From positions 1-25,051 of IMG/VR virus record IMGVR_UViG_3300031758_000537: a stretch of DNA of 25,051 nt; one strand, 5' to 3'. Below the pieces are notes generated by a model that saw only the letters and a list, made by a program, of their open reading frames with translations, did not search any database and was not told the origin of the DNA. Made by a program: the position numbers and the translations under genes. This DNA comes from a virus. Below are positions 1,532 through 15,354 of the stretch, in pieces; within the stretch, counting starts at the first letter, position 1, and every line of letters begins with the position of its first letter.

Positions 1532-2443
1532 ATGAAAGAGAAAAGAAGAATAACATCGGACGGTTACTTTGAAGTAAGTAAAGATGGCGGTAAGAGTTAT
1601 GAAAAAACAACAATGAAGCCTACGCGTCAAGAAGTTTCAGAATGGAGTAATATGCAAAGCTTTAAAGACGGAGGAACTCCTAAGTCTAAAAAAGGAGGCG
1701 TAAGAGAAAAATATTATTTCGATAATATGATACCAAAAGAAGTTACTTTGCCTGTTGGGGGTACAGATTTTTCAAAAATGTTTGAAAAAACTTCTAAGCC
1801 AAATAATCTTGAAGACATGGATGTTAAAGACACTGAACTACCAAGTTTAACTTCTTTATATCCTAAAAAACCTGTTGCGGAAAGAAAATACGGATCAGGA
1901 TTAGAAACCTTATTAGGTGCAGCGCAAGCAGGTTATGGCTTACAGCAATTAATGAAAGATAAACGACCTGTTGGTGAAATTGACCCTACGTTTAGCAGAT
2001 TAACGGATGAGGCTGTTGCTGCTTCAAGATACGGATTTACTCCTGAACAAAGAGCAGCATTAAATCAAGATATAGTAAACGCAAGAATAGCTCAACAGGC
2101 TCAAATTAATCAATTAGCGGGAGGTAGCGCAGGTGTTGGATTAGCAAATGTAAGAGCAGCATTGAACGAAGAATTAATGAATAAATACAAGCTTGCGTCG
2201 GAAGACGAACAAAGACGTATGCAAAAAGCACAACAAGCGGCAGGATTATCGGCGTATAAGGCACAAATGAGTAGAGGGTTATTTCATGACAAAATGAATG
2301 AATTTATGCAGAAACAACAAGCTGGTGCCGAGTTATTAGGCGCAGGTATTCAAAATGTTGTTGGAGCAAGAAGATACCAACGTGAAAGAGAAGCACAGGA
2401 TCAGATAAATAAAATGATGTACGGAAATTCATATTTAGGATAA
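1532..2443 (+). CDS. Ejection-like internal virion protein
   Basis: The protein has 303 residues and an ATG start 17 bases after the previous stop. The N-terminus has two Gly-Gly units (KDGGKSYEK and KDGGTPKSKKGGVREKYY) like those in the preceding gene. After a disordered stretch comes a helical, Ala/Gln-rich C-terminal half (about residues 115-303) with 'IDPTFSRLTDEAVAASRYGFTPEQ', 'GGSAGVGLANVRAALNE' and a long amphipathic helix around 'MQKQQAGAELLGAGIQNVVGARR'. This composition is typical of DNA-ejection or inner-core proteins of short-tailed phages. No enzyme motif is visible. The order KGG protein, this protein, then MAEYGTRRGL protein supports a set of co-packaged internal proteins. The role is inferred from style and context. 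Confidence 0.65.
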   Translation: MKEKRRITSDGYFEVSKDGGKSYEKTTMKPTRQEVSEWSNMQSFKDGGTPKSKKGGVREKYYFDNMIPKEVTLPVGGTDFSKMFEKTSKPNNLEDMDVKDTELPSLTSLYPKKPVAERKYGSGLETLLGAAQAGYGLQQLMKDKRPVGEIDPTFSRLTDEAVAASRYGFTPEQRAALNQDIVNARIAQQAQINQLAGGSAGVGLANVRAALNEELMNKYKLASEDEQRRMQKAQQAAGLSAYKAQMSRGLFHDKMNEFMQKQQAGAELLGAGIQNVVGARRYQREREAQDQINKMMYGNSYLG

Positions 2444-2447
2444 TATT

Positions 2448-2477
2448 ATGGCAGAATTTGGAATCAGACGGGGCTTG
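2448..2477 (+). repeat. Diverged copy of the downstream gene's first ten codons
   Basis: Codons 1-10 of the homing endonuclease read MAEFGIRRGL, and codons 1-10 of the next gene (3298-3327) read MAEYGTRRGL. By hand count 23 of 30 bases match and 8 of 10 residues match; five of the seven differing bases are silent. The A/T-rich bases just before the ATG are also alike (AATATTATGGCAGAA against TATAATATGGCAGAA). After codon 10 the two sequences part completely, so the endonuclease appears to use a captured start region of its target gene. Confidence 0.85.
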
Positions 2478-3296
2478 GTTATAGACGAATCTATTGAGGA
2501 TTTTCTTAATATTTCTTGTATTTATAAAATTATTAATCCTTCAAACAAAATATATATTGGTCAAACTATAAATCTTAAAAAAAGAATAGATAAATATAAT
2601 AGATTAAATTGCAAATGTCAATCAAGATTGTATAATTCATTTAAAAAATATGGATTAGAAAATCATAAAATATACTTAGTGACAAAATGTGATATTGACA
2701 AAATGAATGAAACGGAAAGATATTATCAAGAATTTTATGATGTAATTGGGAAAAGCGGATTGAATTGTAAATTAACATCTACAAAAGATAAAAAATTAAT
2801 TCATAGCGAAGAAACAAGAAAAAAAATGTCTGAAAAGTCAAAAGGAAGAAAAGACGCAAAAGAAGAAATAGAAAGAAAAAGATTATTTCAAACAGGGAGA
2901 AAAATGCCAAGAGAAGGGGTATTAAAAAGCGTAGAAAAAAGAAAAGGATTTAAGCATTCAGAAAAAACAAAACAAAAGTTAAGAGAAATATCTTTGAGGG
3001 ATAGAGATAAAATATCTAATAGGATGAAAGGTAAAAAACTTTCTGAAGAAACAAAATTAAAAATATCTATTTCTCAAAAAGGTAAAAAAAGAAATTATTC
3101 ATTTTATAAAGATAAAAATATTTTGCGTAAAAGAGTTTTATCTAATCCGCAAACAAAATTAGTTGTAAATTTAGAAAGTGGAATTTTTTATGATTGCACA
3201 AGAGATTCTTCTATTGCTTATGGAGTTAATTATAGCTATTTAATTCAGCAATTAAATGGAAGTAAAAAAAATAAAACATCATTAATGTATATATAA
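2448..3296 (+). CDS. GIY-YIG homing endonuclease with NUMOD3/NUMOD1-type modules
   Basis: A 282-residue nuclease. Residues 24-38 hold the GIY-YIG core (C-I-Y at 24-26, Y-I-G at 36-38), with R46 in the catalytic arginine position and E90 in 'NETERYYQEFY' as the likely metal-binding glutamate. C-terminal to this are three NUMOD3-like DNA-binding motifs (near 119-134, 167-185 and 200-216, each of the form SEETK..KS..KG.K) and a NUMOD1-like helix-turn-helix tail with 'YSYLIQQLNGSKKNKT'. This arrangement is established for phage and intron-encoded homing endonucleases. The gene is visibly richer in A/T and in AGA/AAA codons than its neighbours, a sign of separate origin. Its first ten codons copy those of the downstream gene. 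It separates two virion genes and leaves one base before the next ATG. It probably spreads by cutting phages that lack it. Confidence 0.93.
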   Translation: MAEFGIRRGLVIDESIEDFLNISCIYKIINPSNKIYIGQTINLKKRIDKYNRLNCKCQSRLYNSFKKYGLENHKIYLVTKCDIDKMNETERYYQEFYDVIGKSGLNCKLTSTKDKKLIHSEETRKKMSEKSKGRKDAKEEIERKRLFQTGRKMPREGVLKSVEKRKGFKHSEKTKQKLREISLRDRDKISNRMKGKKLSEETKLKISISQKGKKRNYSFYKDKNILRKRVLSNPQTKLVVNLESGIFYDCTRDSSIAYGVNYSYLIQQLNGSKKNKTSLMYI

Positions 3297-3297
3297 T

Positions 3298-4767
3298 ATG
3301 GCAGAATATGGAACCCGGCGCGGATTAGCCCAATCATTCGGTTTTGACCAAGCGACGGCAGATTTAGCAAGACAGCAAGACCAAATGCGTCAAGCTAAGA
3401 TTTATGCTGAAAATAAGGCTAAAATGTTGGCAGAAGATTTTGATTATAACAGCGCTATAAACGCGTGGGATAATACTGCTATTAAAGAATACGCTCAAGG
3501 CAAAATAAAAGAGTTAGGGGCTTTTGTAAGAGAGAATCCTGACTACTTATATAATGTAGATAAAAGAATCGCTTACAATAACATTAAAAGAGAATTAAAA
3601 GATAGTAAACCTTTAATGGAAGGCTTACAGGTTGATGCTAACGTTAAGGAAATGGAAAAATGGAAAAATGATCCTAAGAACGCTCCCTTGTTAGATACGC
3701 CTGAATTTCAAAAAACATTACAAGACTATCAAAATTACGTTAAGACAGGTAGTACGGACGGAAATACTGCTAACAGAAAATTGTTCACATTCTATCCTCC
3801 TGAAGAAAGGATGGATACATGGGGAGAATTAAATAAAATTGCAAAAGCAACACAATTAAAGGGAGAAAGCGCTTCTTATTTAAGAGGAACAAAAACAACT
3901 AAAAAATTTGTTACCGAAGCCGATAAGTTAGATCAAGCAAGGTTAGCATTATCAAACTTAAATTTAAGAAGAGGATTAGAGCATGAGTATAATAAGTATT
4001 TAGAAAGTGGCGTTCCTGAAGGTCAGAAGCCATTGACGTTAGAAAGATATGTTTACGCTAATATGAAAAACTTATTCCCTAACGATGAATATCGTGATAC
4101 TCATTTCCAAGTAAAAGAAGAAAGAGAGCCAAGAACGACAGGTGATGGAACCAAAAAAGCGGATAATTTAGGGCTTTATACTAATATTGTAGATGTAGCA
4201 ACATTAAATCCGGGTAAACCTGTTCAAGCAAATCCTAAAGGCGCAAGAGGTATAATTGCTGGCGCAGATCAATCAATTGATATAGGAAATGGATTTTTCA
4301 AAACTCCTGATGGTAAATATATTCCTATGAATAATTTATCTACTTCTAATTTTAGAACAAATAAATCGGAAATTATTTACGACCCTGCAAGAAAACAACA
4401 CTATATATCAGCTGATGTTACGCTAAATGAAAATGATGCCGAAAACGCGTTTCAAGAAATTAAACCTGTTGACACTCCTTTTGTTCATTGGTTTTGGTTA
4501 GATGAAACTAATATAGATCCTGAATATCAAGACAATATATCTTTACAAGGAACAGATGTAAATTTTAAAGTTTACTTCCCTATTCAAAAAGAAAATACAA
4601 GTTTAGCCGCAGCATATAATCACGAAGCTGGTCAAACATTGGAAAAGTCTGATACTAATCAGCCAAGTCAAGTGTATAGTAGAAGTCAATTAAAATCACA
4701 AGGGTACACGGACGCTCAAATAGATGATTTTAAAAAGAATTATAATGCTAATGTAACTGAAGATTGA
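3298..4767 (+). CDS. Internal virion-type protein, target locus of the homing endonuclease
   Basis: The 489-residue protein begins MAEYGTRRGLAQSFGFDQ at an ATG one base after the endonuclease stop. Residues about 20-230 are helical and charged, with 'QQDQMRQAKIYAENKAKMLAEDF'; residues about 330-440 look more beta-rich and aromatic ('KHYISADVTLN'-like strands, 'FVHWFWLDETNIDP'). The C-terminus has 'YSRSQLKSQGYTDAQIDDF', a short helical motif. No catalytic motif or signal sequence is seen. It lies between ejection-like and polyvalent protein genes and is likely expressed late as a virion component. The conserved 'YGTRRGLAQSFGF' N-terminus, which the endonuclease copies, suggests the start region is well conserved in related phages. 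Function is otherwise unknown. Confidence 0.7.
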   Translation: MAEYGTRRGLAQSFGFDQATADLARQQDQMRQAKIYAENKAKMLAEDFDYNSAINAWDNTAIKEYAQGKIKELGAFVRENPDYLYNVDKRIAYNNIKRELKDSKPLMEGLQVDANVKEMEKWKNDPKNAPLLDTPEFQKTLQDYQNYVKTGSTDGNTANRKLFTFYPPEERMDTWGELNKIAKATQLKGESASYLRGTKTTKKFVTEADKLDQARLALSNLNLRRGLEHEYNKYLESGVPEGQKPLTLERYVYANMKNLFPNDEYRDTHFQVKEEREPRTTGDGTKKADNLGLYTNIVDVATLNPGKPVQANPKGARGIIAGADQSIDIGNGFFKTPDGKYIPMNNLSTSNFRTNKSEIIYDPARKQHYISADVTLNENDAENAFQEIKPVDTPFVHWFWLDETNIDPEYQDNISLQGTDVNFKVYFPIQKENTSLAAAYNHEAGQTLEKSDTNQPSQVYSRSQLKSQGYTDAQIDDFKKNYNANVTED

Positions 4768-4769
4768 TT

Positions 4770-7700
4770 ATGGGAAAAAAAGACGTATTAAATCCGATAG
4801 CCCTTCAGTATGGCGTAACTCCAAAAGAAGAAAATGGAGAAGAAGAAAATCCAATAGCAAGGGACATTAGGTTAGGCATAATTGGGGGATCAAGACCTAC
4901 TAAAATTGAAGAATTATCACTTGAAGAATTAAAACAAAAAAACATAGAGGATTTTAGGCAAGCCGAAGTTCAAGAAGAAGCTTTAAGAAAAGATTTAGAT
5001 CAATACGTAGGATTAAATGAACAAGAAAAAAAATATTTAATAGATAAAAATCTTAAAGGTGAATTAAAGGGAGCAGATTTTTCTCAAACTTTATTTACTA
5101 TGGCGGGATTGATGCCTGAACAACAAAAGGTATTAACTAAAGACGCAAAAGGAAATAAAATATATGCGGACGAGAAAGATATGTTTGACATAATTGAAGA
5201 GCAAAAAAAAGATTTTAATTACGACAAATTAGTTTCTGATTTAACTTCAAAAACACAAACATCAAGTAAGAACAGTTATTACATGAAAGACAAGGGTGAC
5301 GGGACACTGATTGCCGTTCCTTTGGCTATAAACGAAAAACCTGAAGCGAAAGACGTTAAAGACGCTCAGGTATTTTCAAGTTTAGATGATGATGCTATTG
5401 GCGACAGTAGACTTGCTGACATTGCTAAAAAAGCATATAACATAATACCTTCCGTAGCGCAAGGATTTATTTCAATTCCTGAAACAGTTCAAGGGTTAGT
5501 TACGGGTAAAACAGGAGGAACTTATAAATTATTAAAAAGCATATTAGAAGAAAGTAAATTTAAAACCACACAAGAATATCAAAAAGGAATTTTAGACACT
5601 GAAAAAATAGATGAATTTTCAGATTTTTTATCTAAGGACGTTTATGATTTGTCAGGTGATAAGATTTTAAATACGGTAGTAAACGTAGCATCTTCGTTAG
5701 CCGAATTTGGATTAACGAGAAAAATGGTTCCTATTAAAGGAAAAGCTGGAATTTTTGCGGCAGGCATTGCTATGAATATAAAGGAGCCTTTACAGGCGGC
5801 AGAAGATGCGGGAGTAGAAGGTAGAGGGAAATATGCTGTTGCGGCTACTTACGCTTTGGCAGCAAGTGGATTAGAAACTTTTTTAGGTATCGAAGGTAAA
5901 TTATTTGACGATGCTGCTACTACTGCTAAAAAAGAAATGATTAATAAAATCATTAAAGACAATGTAGAAGTAGTGGGAGGTAAGTTAACAAAAGAATCAG
6001 TAGAAAATCTTTATAAAGAAACTTTAAAAGAAATTCCAAGTTTTTACGCTAAGTATGCAAAAAATACTGTTGGTGATGTTACCGATGAGGTTGTGCAAAA
6101 CATGATGCAAAATGCTACGCAGGAAATTCATGATATTGTAATGAGAGATGAGCCTGAAGCCGCAAAATTCAATACAAAGTTTTGGTCGCCTAAAGCATTA
6201 GGAGAATATATAAATTCTGCGGCAGGTGGACTTATAGGCGGTATGGGAGGTTCGTTGTTTATAAAAAACAAACAATCACAAACTGCTTACGATGCTATTA
6301 AAGACGGAAAAGAAAATGAATTAAAAGTTCAATTAACTTCGGGTTTAAAAGAAGGTAGATTAACTCAAGAAGATTATGATAGGGCTATATTTAAAATTGA
6401 TTCCTATAAAAGTTATTACGAAGCTACTAAGGACAGAAATGTTACAGACGAAGAAAAAAGAAAGATATTTGATTTAACATACGAAAAAGAAAATACTAAG
6501 TCGGGAGTAGAAAGATTAAAACAAAATAATCCCGGCGGAATTAACGATGGATTAATTGCTGCAAAAGAACAAGAAGTTAGGGATTACACGCAACAAATAA
6601 ATGATATTTGGTCAACTGCCGAAGCTAGAACATCTGAATCACCTGTTGAAGAAGCGAAAGTAGAAGTTCCTCAATGGAGGACTGCTATGGACGATTTTTC
6701 TAAAGAAATTGGGAACAAAGACAAACGACAATCAATAAACAATTCAACAAGAGATCAGATACAAACAGTTGTTGGGGCTTCTCCAGAATTAAATAAATTA
6801 GCAGAGCCATTTAGCGTTGACTTTACCTCTCCACATTTGCCTGAAGAATCAACGATACAAATTAGAAATGGTATTTTATATGAACCATATTTAGTAAAAC
6901 AAGAAGGCAAAGAGGATGTTATTGAAACAAGGCAATTACCTGTTTATGCTATGGAAGATAAAGATGGTGGAACGTGGTTATTTGCAGTAGGGCAAAAAAC
7001 GGAAACAGGCGCAGAAGACGTAACTTATTTAATTAAGTTAGACGAAGAGGGTAAATATGAAGGTCATCAAGAATTTAAGTATCGTACAGCTAAAAAGAAC
7101 GAATTAACTTTTGATGATATTAAACCTGCATTTGATAAATTAGGTATTCAAGCCGCATCTTTAACAAGTGAAATAAAAGGAATAGAAAATATTCCTCAAG
7201 CTGAATTTGAAGAAGTAGAAGAGTTTGAAGAAATTCCTGAAGAAAAAGGCATTGTTGAATCCGAACAATTTAAAAATGTTTACGAAAAAGTAAAGGCGGG
7301 TGTAAGTAAAGCAAAATTAAAATTACTACCAAACAATACTGTCGGAGTAACCATTGACGGAGAAGATGTTCCTTTTGCTTCACAAAGATATTTAAACAAA
7401 GAAGAATTGCCTTCGGGTGACGTAGAAGTTAATGTAAGAGTAGTAGAAAACATAGATGGTAAATACGGACGTGGCGTATTGATTGAAACTCAAGAAGGAG
7501 TTCCTTTGGGATACATTAGACGTGCAGGAAAAGAAACAGGAAGAGTTGCTGCTGAAAAAATATCACCAACAGAAGATGTTGATATTGATGTTCCTGTTGA
7601 GTTAAGTGATGTTGCAAAAGAAAGATTACAGCAAATAGAAAAAGACCAAGAGAATTACGAATTAGTAGAGGACGAATTAAGTCGCAGATATGTAAATAAA

Positions 7701-10076
7701 AAAACAGGCGAATCTTATACTTCTGTAAGTACATTTGTAAGTGGTAAATCTGGTGGCGATTTTGAAGGAAAAAATCAATTAAGAGAAACAGCATTTAAGG
7801 TAGGTAATATCATTAATGGAATAGTAAGAGATTTCTTTAACGGCACTATTAAGTCATATTCTAATTACGCGGAAAATATGTCCCGTGACGATTACGATGA
7901 TATTATTAGGCAATTACAAGACGTAATTCAATATGCAAAAGACAAAGGATATTCTATTGTTACTAAGCCATTGATTATTGCAGACGATGTAAATAAAATT
8001 GCAGGTCAGCCAAACTTATTAATGGTTGATGAAAATGGTAAATTTTATGTTTACGATGTGGCTACATTAAGAAATACAAAAGGATTAGAAACAAAAGAGT
8101 TACTGAATAGAAGATACAAAGACAGACCAACAAACGCCGAAAGAATATCTGCTCAAGTAAACATATTGGCTGATATTTTAAATAACAAATACGGATTAGA
8201 AGTAGGTAGAGTTGGGGTAATTCCTTTTGATGTAGATTATGAAGTTTTATCAAAAGATAAACCTGTTCAAATTACTCATGCGGTAAGAACTAAAAGAGTT
8301 GACTTTAAGCGTAAACAAATATTGAAACCAACAGGCAAAACATCTACTGCGGAAGTAAAAGAAAAAGTAGAAGAAGTAAAACCTATTGAAAAGAAAGCAG
8401 AAGAAAAACCAAAAGAAGCTAAGCCTGCCGAGAAAGAAGTTGTTAAGGAAAAAGTAAAAACGGAAGAGGAAGAAGCGAAAGAGCAGTTAAAAGAAACCGA
8501 AAATTTATTATCAGGCGATGCTGAAAAAAATAGAAAAGCAGGCAAATTTGTAAAGAACGGAATTGAATTTGTAAGAAACAAAAAAGGCGAGGGAGAAAAA
8601 GGAAGTCAAGGTCAAGTTAGGTTTACTAATGAGGCAGGAGGAGCAGGAGTTGTTGTTCCGTTTAGGTATAAAATTATAGAAGCCGAAACGTTACAACCTT
8701 CTCATGAAGGAGGAATTAGAAACCCATTACACTTTATTCCTGAAGCACAACCTAAAAACAGAAACGATGCGGGAAGTTTGCAAGCAGAAGATAGTTTTGC
8801 TGAAAATCCAAGATTTAATGAATTAGGCGAAAACACAAATGCTTACAGTGGAGCTCCAATAGTTAATGAAAGAAACGAAGTTATTCAAGGAAACAATCGT
8901 TCGGCAGGATTAAGAAAAGGTTATAAGCAAGGAAATGAAAAGTATAAAAACGATTTAGTTGATAATGCTGAAAAATTTGGATTTACTAAAGAGCAAGTAT
9001 CTAAATTTAAAGAACCTATTCTTGTAAGAGAAACTGCTGTTACAGATGAATTTTCAATAGAGTTAGGAAACTACGATGCAAAAGATTTGGAAACAGGAGG
9101 TAAAAGAAGAATTGATTCTATTGCTGTTGTAAGAAGAATGCCTTTTGATGTAAAAGGTAAAATAGCAAACATATTATTTAGAGAAGAAGATAAAACATTA
9201 AATCAGGCTATTAGAGATAATATTAAGGATTTTATTAATTTAATTAATCCTTATTTGAATCAGGCGCAAAGAAACACTATATTCAAAGATGGTGAATTAA
9301 CTGAAGCTGGAGCAAAAGATTTAGAAAGTGTAGTTCAACAATTTTTGTATGACGGCGGAGATGTTGCGTTACCTGAATTGTTTGAATCATTGTCTTATAA
9401 TCAAAAGGAGGGAATTAAAAAATCGTTGCCAAATATATTTTCTGTTGGTTACGAAAAATCAATAATTCCTGAAATACAAGAAGCTATAATAGCTTTAAGT
9501 AGCTTTAATGCAAGTGGAGTTGATAAGATCAACAATTGGTTAACTCAACAAGACATGTTCGCTGAAGGTAAAACTCCAAAAGAAATATATACTCCCGTTG
9601 CAATAGAGTTAGCTAAATCATTAAATTCTGCTACATCACAAAAACAAATACAAAAGATTTTTGCTGAATACGCAAGTTTAGTAAAGGATAAGCCTGCCGA
9701 TATGTTTGATGAAGCAAAAAAGGGATTAACAAAAAAAGAAGGTATAAAACAAATATTTAACGTAGAATATGAAGAATCAAAAAAAATTAGTGAGAGAGGC
9801 GGTATTGAGATTGATAAAAAGCCGTCAGCCGAAGGAGGCGAAGATGTTGCCCAGCAAAAAGCAAAATCAGTCAAATCAATCTTTGATGAAGCCGTAAAGT
9901 TATTCTATAAGATACGCGGAACAGAAGGAGCTGCTAAAAAAAGAAATTTAACACAAGAACGTAAAGAACTTTTAAAAGAAAATCCTACTGTAAGGTTTAT
10001 AGATAACAATATAAGTTCTATCTTTGAACAATTAGAAAATAAAAACATTATTAAACGTAAGGGTAACTGCCCATAA
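4770..10076 (+). CDS. Large polyvalent protein with ddrB-type ParB domain and degenerate PD-(D/E)XK-like module
   Basis: The ATG at 4770, two bases after the previous stop, is preferred to a TTG six bases earlier, giving 1768 residues. Residues about 300-375 and 477-500 contain Ala/Gly-rich hydrophobic segments ('IFAAGIAMN', 'AVAATYALAASGLE', 'AAGGLIGGMGGSLF') that may insert in membrane. Residues about 972-1160 resemble a RecB-type nuclease fold (YTSVSTFVSG … IAGQPNLLMV … YVYDVATLRN), but its usual catalytic residues are replaced. A Lys/Glu-rich linker spans about 1191-1240. Residues about 1298-1440 match the ddrB-like ParB superfamily: 'YKIIEAETLQPSH', 'YSGAPIVNERNEVIQGNNRS'. The C-terminus is helical. 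Such multi-domain polyvalent proteins are known from phages and conjugative elements and are thought to enter the host with the DNA and counter defences. That role here is inferred. Confidence 0.82.
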   Translation: MGKKDVLNPIALQYGVTPKEENGEEENPIARDIRLGIIGGSRPTKIEELSLEELKQKNIEDFRQAEVQEEALRKDLDQYVGLNEQEKKYLIDKNLKGELKGADFSQTLFTMAGLMPEQQKVLTKDAKGNKIYADEKDMFDIIEEQKKDFNYDKLVSDLTSKTQTSSKNSYYMKDKGDGTLIAVPLAINEKPEAKDVKDAQVFSSLDDDAIGDSRLADIAKKAYNIIPSVAQGFISIPETVQGLVTGKTGGTYKLLKSILEESKFKTTQEYQKGILDTEKIDEFSDFLSKDVYDLSGDKILNTVVNVASSLAEFGLTRKMVPIKGKAGIFAAGIAMNIKEPLQAAEDAGVEGRGKYAVAATYALAASGLETFLGIEGKLFDDAATTAKKEMINKIIKDNVEVVGGKLTKESVENLYKETLKEIPSFYAKYAKNTVGDVTDEVVQNMMQNATQEIHDIVMRDEPEAAKFNTKFWSPKALGEYINSAAGGLIGGMGGSLFIKNKQSQTAYDAIKDGKENELKVQLTSGLKEGRLTQEDYDRAIFKIDSYKSYYEATKDRNVTDEEKRKIFDLTYEKENTKSGVERLKQNNPGGINDGLIAAKEQEVRDYTQQINDIWSTAEARTSESPVEEAKVEVPQWRTAMDDFSKEIGNKDKRQSINNSTRDQIQTVVGASPELNKLAEPFSVDFTSPHLPEESTIQIRNGILYEPYLVKQEGKEDVIETRQLPVYAMEDKDGGTWLFAVGQKTETGAEDVTYLIKLDEEGKYEGHQEFKYRTAKKNELTFDDIKPAFDKLGIQAASLTSEIKGIENIPQAEFEEVEEFEEIPEEKGIVESEQFKNVYEKVKAGVSKAKLKLLPNNTVGVTIDGEDVPFASQRYLNKEELPSGDVEVNVRVVENIDGKYGRGVLIETQEGVPLGYIRRAGKETGRVAAEKISPTEDVDIDVPVELSDVAKERLQQIEKDQENYELVEDELSRRYVNKKTGESYTSVSTFVSGKSGGDFEGKNQLRETAFKVGNIINGIVRDFFNGTIKSYSNYAENMSRDDYDDIIRQLQDVIQYAKDKGYSIVTKPLIIADDVNKIAGQPNLLMVDENGKFYVYDVATLRNTKGLETKELLNRRYKDRPTNAERISAQVNILADILNNKYGLEVGRVGVIPFDVDYEVLSKDKPVQITHAVRTKRVDFKRKQILKPTGKTSTAEVKEKVEEVKPIEKKAEEKPKEAKPAEKEVVKEKVKTEEEEAKEQLKETENLLSGDAEKNRKAGKFVKNGIEFVRNKKGEGEKGSQGQVRFTNEAGGAGVVVPFRYKIIEAETLQPSHEGGIRNPLHFIPEAQPKNRNDAGSLQAEDSFAENPRFNELGENTNAYSGAPIVNERNEVIQGNNRSAGLRKGYKQGNEKYKNDLVDNAEKFGFTKEQVSKFKEPILVRETAVTDEFSIELGNYDAKDLETGGKRRIDSIAVVRRMPFDVKGKIANILFREEDKTLNQAIRDNIKDFINLINPYLNQAQRNTIFKDGELTEAGAKDLESVVQQFLYDGGDVALPELFESLSYNQKEGIKKSLPNIFSVGYEKSIIPEIQEAIIALSSFNASGVDKINNWLTQQDMFAEGKTPKEIYTPVAIELAKSLNSATSQKQIQKIFAEYASLVKDKPADMFDEAKKGLTKKEGIKQIFNVEYEESKKISERGGIEIDKKPSAEGGEDVAQQKAKSVKSIFDEAVKLFYKIRGTEGAAKKRNLTQERKELLKENPTVRFIDNNISSIFEQLENKNIIKRKGNCP

Positions 10077-10087
10077 AATAAAACAAA

Positions 10088-10591
10088 ATGAAAAAACCTA
10101 AAAAATTACCACAAGAAATTGTAGATTTATTACTGCCAAGATTAAAGGACGAGTTTACTGCTTATTATCATTATAGGGCGCTTTCTAACTATTGTCAAGG
10201 TGTAGGGTTTATGAAGGCTGCAAAGTTCTTTCAGGGAGAATCTGATAACGAATTAGGACATGCTAAAAAGATTGAAAACTATTTAGTTGATTGGAATGTA
10301 AATCCACAATTACCAAAAATTGATGAACCTAAGATTGAGTTCAAAGGATTGTTAGAAGGTATTGAAATGTCTTATAGTATTGAATACGCTTTGTACGAAG
10401 ATTACGAAGATACATCAATGAAAATTTTCAAAGAGGGTGATGTTTGTACTTTTGACTTTTTACAATTTTTCAGAACCGAACAAACTGCTGCTGTTGCAGA
10501 ATACTCTGATATGTTAAATATGTTAGAAGGAACTGATACTGCAAGTAAATTTGAATTATTAATGCTTGAAGAAAAATTATTTGGAGAATAA
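10088..10591 (+). CDS. Phage-encoded ferritin (bacterial non-haem ferritin type)
   Basis: A 167-residue four-helix protein, the normal length for ferritin. It keeps the ferroxidase ligands by alignment to E. coli FtnA: E22, E55 and H58 ('ESDNELGHAKK'), E99, plus E131 and Q132 in 'FLQFFRTEQ'. The typical 'LPKIDEPKIEF' segment between helices B and C and 'TFDFLQFF' are present. Known role of the family: oxidise Fe(II) and store iron in a 24-subunit shell. The FtnA third-site residues E129/E130 are Ala here (A134, A135). The gene starts 11 bases after the polyvalent protein stop behind an A-rich leader (AATAAAACAAAATG), and its stop overlaps the next start as TAATG. It is thus made with virion or injected proteins, not with metabolic genes. 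Confidence 0.93.
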   Translation: MKKPKKLPQEIVDLLLPRLKDEFTAYYHYRALSNYCQGVGFMKAAKFFQGESDNELGHAKKIENYLVDWNVNPQLPKIDEPKIEFKGLLEGIEMSYSIEYALYEDYEDTSMKIFKEGDVCTFDFLQFFRTEQTAAVAEYSDMLNMLEGTDTASKFELLMLEEKLFGE

Positions 10592-14475: not shown

Positions 14476-15354
14476 ATGAGTTGTAGTTGTAATATTAGCT
14501 GTAATTGTAATACGGTAATTCAAAAAGGAGATATAGGACCTCAAGGTCCAATTGGTCCACAAGGACCGCAAGGGGTACAAGGTGAACAGGGCGAACCGGG
14601 TGAAAATGGAAATACAATATTGAACGGAACTACTGATCCTTTGTTTCAAGGAGAAATTGGTGATTTTTATATAAACACAGCTACCAATGAATTGTATGGT
14701 CCTAAAACAGAATCAGGATGGGGGAGCCCAACAAGTTTAATTGGTCCACAAGGTCCTCCGGGTCCAAGTGGAAATTGTTGTTTTGAATATGAAATAGGGG
14801 AATATGTAAGTGCTGAAGGCGGAGTAGTGTTTCATAGATGGTTATCAACTACTTCTTACGGTATTCCTGAAAACGGAACAGTTCAAAATTACTTAATTGT
14901 ATCATTAGAAGACGTTTCTACAACAATGGAATGGATAAACGTAGCTTTAGATACTACATATATATCAGGAGCAACAAGTAATTGGAACGGTGAATCAAAC
15001 ACGAACGCTATTATGACCGCAGGGGCAACAAGTGGAGCTGCTTATGATTGCTCTAACTTTACAGGCGGAGGAAAATCTGATTGGTATTTACCTGCAATAG
15101 ATGAAATGTGGAAATTATACAATAATAGATGGGAAGTTAATCGCGGATTAGCAAGTGTATCTCCAACAGCTTACGATTTAATAGGGTATAAAGTTAGTTA
15201 TTGGACAAGTAATAATGATAGTAACGATGCTACAACCGCTTATCTATTTTATACAGGACCAAGTTCTTCTCCGGGTAATCCTACTTTTCAGCAATTATTA
15301 AAGTCTGATTTATATGATGTAAGAGCAGTTAGAAAATTTACATTTACGCCTTAA
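14476..15354 (+). CDS. Collagen-like tail fibre with DUF1566/Lcl-type lectin-like C-terminus
   Basis: A 292-residue fibre. It opens with MSCSCNISCNCN, then has nine collagen triplets at residues 18-45 (GDIGPQGPIGPQGPQG…), a linker with 'GDFYINTATNELYGPKT' and 'GWGSPTSL' that commonly joins collagen-like segments in Bacteroidota proteins, and a second short triplet run (GPQGPPGPSG). Residues about 105-292 look like the DUF1566/Lcl C-terminal domain, related to C-type-lectin folds: 'SDWYLPAIDEMWKLYN', 'YWTSNNDSND' and the terminal 'YDVRAVRKF'. The collagen part should trimerise and the C-terminal domain should bind the host surface. It is near the end of the late block, as fibre genes often are. 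An Asn-rich loop is notable. Confidence 0.85.
   Translation: MSCSCNISCNCNTVIQKGDIGPQGPIGPQGPQGVQGEQGEPGENGNTILNGTTDPLFQGEIGDFYINTATNELYGPKTESGWGSPTSLIGPQGPPGPSGNCCFEYEIGEYVSAEGGVVFHRWLSTTSYGIPENGTVQNYLIVSLEDVSTTMEWINVALDTTYISGATSNWNGESNTNAIMTAGATSGAAYDCSNFTGGGKSDWYLPAIDEMWKLYNNRWEVNRGLASVSPTAYDLIGYKVSYWTSNNDSNDATTAYLFYTGPSSSPGNPTFQQLLKSDLYDVRAVRKFTFTP

Follow-up and report, generated by a model that had tools for sequence, protein, structure and literature searches.

Free-standing endonucleases are commonly viewed as intruders that settle between genes or split them. In the viral locus described here, a homing endonuclease gene and the gene directly behind it open with nearly the same ten codons, which raises the questions of how one gene start came to stand on both genes, which of the two copies is the original, and whether other endonuclease loci are arranged in a similar way. 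The window analyzed comprises 25,051 nucleotides of the IMG/VR record IMGVR_UViG_3300031758_000537 (positions 1 to 25,051), and its relevant features are given in Table 1.

Table 1. Features of the window discussed in the text, with coordinates counted from its first nucleotide.
Feature	Position	Strand	Remarks
Upstream gene, 303 aa	1532..2443	+	Stop 4 bases before the endonuclease ATG; same neighbour in L003 and L005
Copy 1, codons 1-10, MAEFGIRRGL	2448..2477	+	Probable original start of the target gene; in-frame fusion to the endonuclease
GIY-YIG/NUMOD3 homing endonuclease ORF, 282 aa	2448..3296	+	Body (2478-3290) 23.1% G+C, against 37.2% and 33.8% in the neighbour genes
Copy 2, codons 1-10, MAEYGTRRGL	3298..3327	+	Probable recoded replacement start
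Target gene, 489 aa	3298..4767	+	Without family match
1,770-aa protein	4764..10076		Directly after the target gene; ddrB-like ParB superfamily domain (PF18763, 90 bits)
Ferritin-like protein	10088..10591		PF00210, 77 bits; inside the phage gene cluster
Protein with collagen-like repeats	14476..15354		Lcl_C match weak, under the cut-off

Paired starts and the genes that carry them

The coordinates, reading frames and peptides of the two starts agree with those reported in the initial annotation, as do the seven base differences among 30 (five of them silent) and the sharp loss of identity past codon 10; the copies thus match at 23 of 30 bases and 8 of 10 residues. The bases before the two ATG codons, described there as similar, do show some likeness, but only a loose one (GGATAATATT and TATATAAT). 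Five of the changes fall at 7.3 silent sites and two at 22.7 non-silent sites (pN/pS 0.13), and the probability under neutrality that two or fewer of seven changes would be non-silent is 0.011. Of the 81,612 pairs of plus-strand ATG codons in the window that are separated by 30 bases or more, only this one matches at 23 or more of 30 bases. A motif search of both strands of the window and of loci L001-L005 revealed nothing else close, the next-best scores being 22 in the window and 25 in L005 (against 27 for the true start of L005). Use of the same ten codons by other genes, which the initial annotation would have counted against its reading, was not seen in the window or the related loci. Both starts are rich in G+C (50% in copy 1 and 53% in copy 2, against 33% in the window) and contain rare codons; CGG accounts for 2 of the 212 arginine codons of the 13 genes counted, and one of those two sits in copy 2.

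The strength of the pair was also compared with that of other endonuclease loci. A start-anchored survey covered 270 distinct GIY-YIG/NUMOD3 ORFs among the matches listed, 243 of which had at least one testable downstream start (3,366 comparisons). The pair, represented by its identical copy in L001, scored 37; a single comparison scored higher (46, between two endonuclease starts in L224) and the next below it reached 22. Tandem endonuclease genes with alike starts occur in L224 and also in L070. In a looser scan of flank against flank (261 endonucleases), the window pair scored 42, which falls between the 95% (40) and 99% (46.4) points of a cross-pair control with a maximum of 111, so that the strength of the pair depends on both copies being located at starts.

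The product of the first gene matches the GIY-YIG domain (PF01541, 26.5 bits, cut-off 22.6), NUMOD3 (34.7 bits, cut-off 20.4) and the homing endonuclease family phrog_314 (E 3.6e-29). Residues Y26, Y36, R46 and E90 are invariant in an alignment of eight endonucleases, and CIY replaces GIY in the window protein. Its best relative among named phages, from Flavobacterium phage FL-1 (34.7% identity), starts MIGIYKI and has no leader; the window protein therefore has 23 residues ahead of CIY, ten of which are the shared start. In the seven loci of named-phage relatives inspected by eye (L019-L025), the endonuclease start was never common to the next gene. Loci L009-L012 were rejected as relatives, their matches being confined to NUMOD-like stretches, and a sequence search of the PDB returned no meaningful match. 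The view of the initial annotation that the element is neither an intron nor an intein was borne out. Searching the insert against Rfam gave no group I or II catalytic core and no intron at gathering scores (two unrelated sub-threshold matches had E values of 2.5 and 2.8), and an intein is rejected because the ORF has its own stop at 3294-3296 and the frame is not continuous through both flanks. By its domains, and by its site being empty in relatives, the protein is a free-standing GIY-YIG homing endonuclease whose cleavage and homing activities are predicted from sequence.

For the target gene, no match was found in Pfam or PHROG, nor in the named-phage collection or the genome contigs, and scans of viral contigs with three different queries returned only five related records. 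Its position makes it plausible that it is a virion gene.

Empty sites in relatives and similar layouts at other loci

Three of the five related viral records, which may be fragments, carry the endonuclease, and two (G003 and G005) hold no relative of it. The stretch 2448-3296 is identical in the three carrier records. The initial annotation had recommended aligning the locus with phages lacking the endonuclease, and this comparison agreed with its expectation: the insert is absent in L003 and L005, where the upstream gene, which terminates GGATAATAGT, adjoins the target start, its stop being directly followed by one ATGGCAGA start. This single start reads MAEFGVRRGL in L003 and MADIGIRKGL in L005, and neither locus has the pair of starts that would have spoken against the reading. 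By comparison with these empty sites, the insert splits the target gene at about codon 10, and the same sequences support the view that the endonuclease occupies the former start of the next gene, a copy of which now serves it. The single gene with a single start in both endonuclease-free relatives also makes a tandem duplication very improbable as the source of the pair, in which the endonuclease would later have replaced the first of two paralogues except its start, even if neighbouring phage genes with alike starts do occur in control loci.

The first 20 codons of the target gene form a peak of divergence in three comparisons, with 17/60 against 52/420 (p = 0.003), 19/60 against 29/420 (p = 3e-7) and 21/60 against 48/420 (p = 1e-5) in the first 20 codons and the remainder, respectively. 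Divergence at this spot is by itself no sign of the insert, because the third comparison, between the endonuclease-free L003 and L005, shows the same peak. The peak fits a site under repeated attack or exchange, and also a weakly constrained N-terminus. A different idea is that the endonuclease acquired the ten residues as a functional tag, one that might direct packaging into the particle. Eight of the ten are kept despite five silent changes, which speaks for it; however, the three orthologues vary especially strongly at positions 3-8 within their first 60 residues, and the corresponding fused start in L278 comes from a sulfotransferase-like enzyme, so that a shared tag appears extremely improbable.

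Further endonuclease loci formed a convenience sample drawn from three pattern scans of viral contigs, among the matches listed. A direct-repeat test on DNA (267 endonucleases) gave nine rows scoring at least 18, the window included, against a shuffled maximum of 16; two of these rows (L267 and L138) were discarded as non-coding or A+T-rich. A translated flank scan (261 endonucleases) gave 16 rows scoring at least 53, of which nine were kept: L147, L360, L268, L124, L111, L209, L090, L278 and L204. The start-anchored tests contributed the window's own pair, which makes ten cases. Rows L180, L363, L226 and L190 were dropped for stop codons in the match or RNA-gene-like sequence (the L190 match presumably resembles a translated tRNA), L357 and L317 for frames that were G+C-rich or held stops, and L041 for copies lying 230 and 140 bases from the ORF. 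In L363 and L190, the repeats with stop codons or RNA-gene-like sequence flank the endonuclease on both sides, and RNA genes are possibly the targets there. L238 has a short, likely C-terminal copy (VLDGGTY plus stop) on both sides of its endonuclease, with a score of 40 that is too weak to count.

Diverged coding copies of the end of a neighbouring gene thus lie on both sides of the endonuclease in nine loci besides the window, so that such layouts make up a few per cent of the endonuclease genes surveyed. Four involve a 5' end, of genes encoding a sulfotransferase-like protein (L278), a PD-(D/E)XK nuclease by its matches (L147), an endonuclease VII by its matches (L360) and a protein of no family (L209). 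The other five involve a 3' end, of genes encoding an SbcC-like protein by a weak match (L268, in which the endonuclease is broken into two ORFs), a helicase (L124), gyrase B (L204), a protein of no family (L090) and a protein with a weak DnaB match (L111).

In a control on the same loci that disregarded the ORF's own sequence, flanks scored at least 55 for 9 of 208 endonuclease ORFs (150-400 aa) and for 6 of 1,264 other ORFs (Fisher p = 4e-5); the numbers were 7 against 6 when two non-coding endonuclease rows were subtracted (p = 8e-4), the control rows being left unpruned. These counts exclude the window and L278, because their upstream copy is within the endonuclease ORF, and L268, because its endonuclease ORF is short. 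Inclusion of the ORF's own start, at a score of at least 50, gave 12 of 208 against 26 of 1,264 (p = 0.007), a weaker contrast because adjacent phage genes can have alike starts without any endonuclease. Neighbouring phage genes other than the surveyed endonucleases are alike over about 20 start residues in L279, L303, L034 and L353.

Pooling the ten pairs gave a pS of 0.74, a pN of 0.20 and a pN/pS of 0.27, with one L360 codon counted twice in two overlapping ungapped blocks; the pN/pS of L278 was 0.12. The pooled ratio indicates that the copies diverged within working genes, and to judge from these substitutions the members of a pair resemble alleles of functional genes that belong to different phages.

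The closest parallel to the window is L278. Its endonuclease ORF (1572-2387) opens with MKAPILITGAARSG, joined directly to IYEIVCLPTGKRYIG, and takes the G of its GIY from the fused start. The sulfotransferase-like gene behind it (2387-3112) is intact and begins MNKINNLPSPILITGAARSG. The relative L461 (56% identity), on a contig from a Firmicutes metagenome-assembled genome, has an empty site with the start MKEFSPIFVTGAARSG. The ATG of L461 overlaps the stop of the preceding gene as ATGA, as does that of the fused copy in L278, whereas the intact gene of L278 does not have this start; the support is one of geometry, because the upstream genes of L278 and L461 differ. In L360, the remnant scores 157 against the endonuclease VII start of Vibrio phage phiKT1024 and the intact copy 141. 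The intact copy of L147 outscores the remnant against every one of the 41 relatives compared; these relatives were chosen from 80 loci (of which L381 is L147 itself), and those omitted were near-duplicates or had no N-terminus. Decay of the remnant would give the L147 result, and so would a native intact copy. The comparison of L124 with its relative L462 pointed clearly to neither copy.

Origin of the two starts

Nucleotide distances in the window decide nothing on the polarity of the pair: of 30 bases, 9 differ between copy 1 and the L003 start and 12 between copy 1 and the L005 start, the corresponding counts for copy 2 being 8 and 11. Polarity is read in the window from two residues: F4 of copy 1 is as in L003 and I6 as in L005, whereas Y4 and T6 of copy 2 are found in neither relative. 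Because F4 and I6 match the relatives, and because the fused copy of L278 keeps the ATGA overlap of L461, the fused copy is likelier to be the original than the downstream copy. Copy 1 is thus probably the original start, now serving the endonuclease, and copy 2 a diverged replacement. The initial annotation had proposed that the endonuclease captured and recoded the start of the gene behind it. That a copy of the next gene's start is in use by the endonuclease was upheld, but the start was probably not captured and recoded by the element, as indicated by the same residues and geometry.

In the capture originally envisaged, the downstream copy would be the original and the endonuclease would have brought a foreign start along as a leader. 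Copy 2 runs on without interruption into the gene body, its distances to the relatives are no larger than those of copy 1, and the L147 relatives resemble the intact copy more closely, all of which is consistent with this order of events. However, both residues that distinguish copy 2 are its own, the upstream copies of L278 and L360 show the start geometry of their relatives while the start of the intact gene is altered, and most parallel cases contain an unfused remnant and no leader. The capture of a foreign leader is therefore quite unlikely.

Another alternative is a target-site duplication, in which a long staggered break was copied, over about 35 bp, to both sides of the insert, the two copies then drifting in place. 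Such an event would agree with the position of the copies directly next to the insert at each side, with their abrupt end at codon 10, and with a state common to all three near-identical carriers. It is nonetheless unlikely, as the direct repeats are not identical (23/30): 7 of 30 bases differ, although the endonuclease region shows no differences in three other records. Moreover, silent sites are near saturation and non-silent sites are not, both in the window and in the pooled pairs, whereas a freed copy should change everywhere.

We consider it probable that the endonuclease inserted after codon 10 of the target gene, the old ten codons now leading the endonuclease and a recoded version keeping the target gene whole. 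What is observed is that the endonuclease gene is inserted and fused in frame, that the second copy has diverged and that parallel cases exist elsewhere; the most likely course of events behind this would be the following. A phage carrying the endonuclease and a relative would co-infect one cell, and the enzyme would cut the gene of the relative near codon 10. The carrier would serve as the homologous template for repair of the gene body, and the other end would be joined to the front of the endonuclease gene with little or no homology, leaving the endonuclease with the old start and the gene with that of the carrier. Copy 2 would accordingly have been brought in, along with the endonuclease, from a related phage when the break was repaired, and the lasting fusions would be only those that kept the endonuclease in frame. 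The recoding may render the carrier resistant; the silent changes, taken in the initial annotation as possible protection, are equally expected if the two copies derive from different phages. With distances of 4 bases at the endonuclease and 1 base at the target gene, translation of both genes could be coupled to the stop just before each.

Relation to known systems and implications

Replacement of a gene end along with an endonuclease ORF has been described in fungal mitochondria, according to the available text of three studies (PMC3630166, PMC4019555 and PMC7315562). In the hybrid genes of Glomus (atp6, atp9, cox2 and nad3) and Allomyces (atp6), as far as presented in the accessible portion of PMC3630166, an endonuclease ORF is likewise inserted in a gene, one gene end lies on both sides of the ORF in copies that resemble each other in protein but much less in DNA, and the native end remains behind the ORF as a remnant; two such ends in Glomus are 63.5% identical in DNA and 91% in protein. 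The fungal elements replace the C-terminus, with the gene before the endonuclease, whereas in the window the N-terminus is replaced, the gene lies behind and the host is a phage; in addition, unlike in the fungal hybrids of that text, the remnant start in the window is fused in frame to the endonuclease. The fungal orientation, at the 3' end, is found in five of the ten phage cases (L268, L124, L204, L090 and L111), and the 5' orientation in the other five. Mitochondrial introns of Tremella are said, in the available part of PMC7315562, to hold N-terminal duplications of host genes, and partial gene replacement was proposed; like the window element, they are mobile and bear a diverged piece of the gene they entered, but they are predicted introns inside genes, whereas the insert in the window is filled by the endonuclease ORF and showed no intron.

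Among phages, the Seg and Mob proteins of T4-type viruses are, like the window protein, free-standing endonucleases located between or inside genes, and the overlapping stop and start of T4 mobE is suggestive of coupling (PMC2988022, in the text available). In contrast to the window, duplication is not mentioned in that text, and split genes stay as two pieces without a second copy of an end. No such layout appears in the accessible text of this T4 review or of a study of phage nuclease genes (PMC10448857). Replacement of gene ends by endonucleases in phages was likewise not found among the matches listed in a search of open-access literature, as far as their text was available, subscription journals being mostly outside its scope. 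A phage endonuclease has been linked to amplification of gene segments, which, from the part of PMC13096335 available, is a different process. Synthetic cleave-and-rescue gene drives, a subject of PMC7951863, similarly combine a nuclease with a recoded copy of the gene that it cuts; those systems are engineered, whereas cutting and protection at the present locus are deduced.

The nearest known systems are the fungal mitochondrial endonuclease ORFs that replace gene ends; the layout described here is a variant of them in phages, and in five of the ten cases it is the mirror image, located at the 5' end. It is quite possible, although we propose it tentatively, that these loci represent natural cut-and-patch elements of phages, in which the endonuclease travels with a recoded end of the gene it cuts. 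Each invasion would swap that end for a cleavage-resistant version and leave a remnant, 5' or 3', in a few per cent of GIY-YIG/NUMOD3 loci, and a 5' invader could seize the start codon of its victim. If this is true, such elements would enter coding sequence harmlessly while gaining immunity to their own enzyme in the same step, and diverged gene ends would spread between phages. The remnant would mark the point at which the break was joined, and target sites could therefore be read from sequence. Phages would then share a phenomenon described in fungal mitochondria, and these elements would be a natural counterpart of engineered cleave-and-rescue drives.
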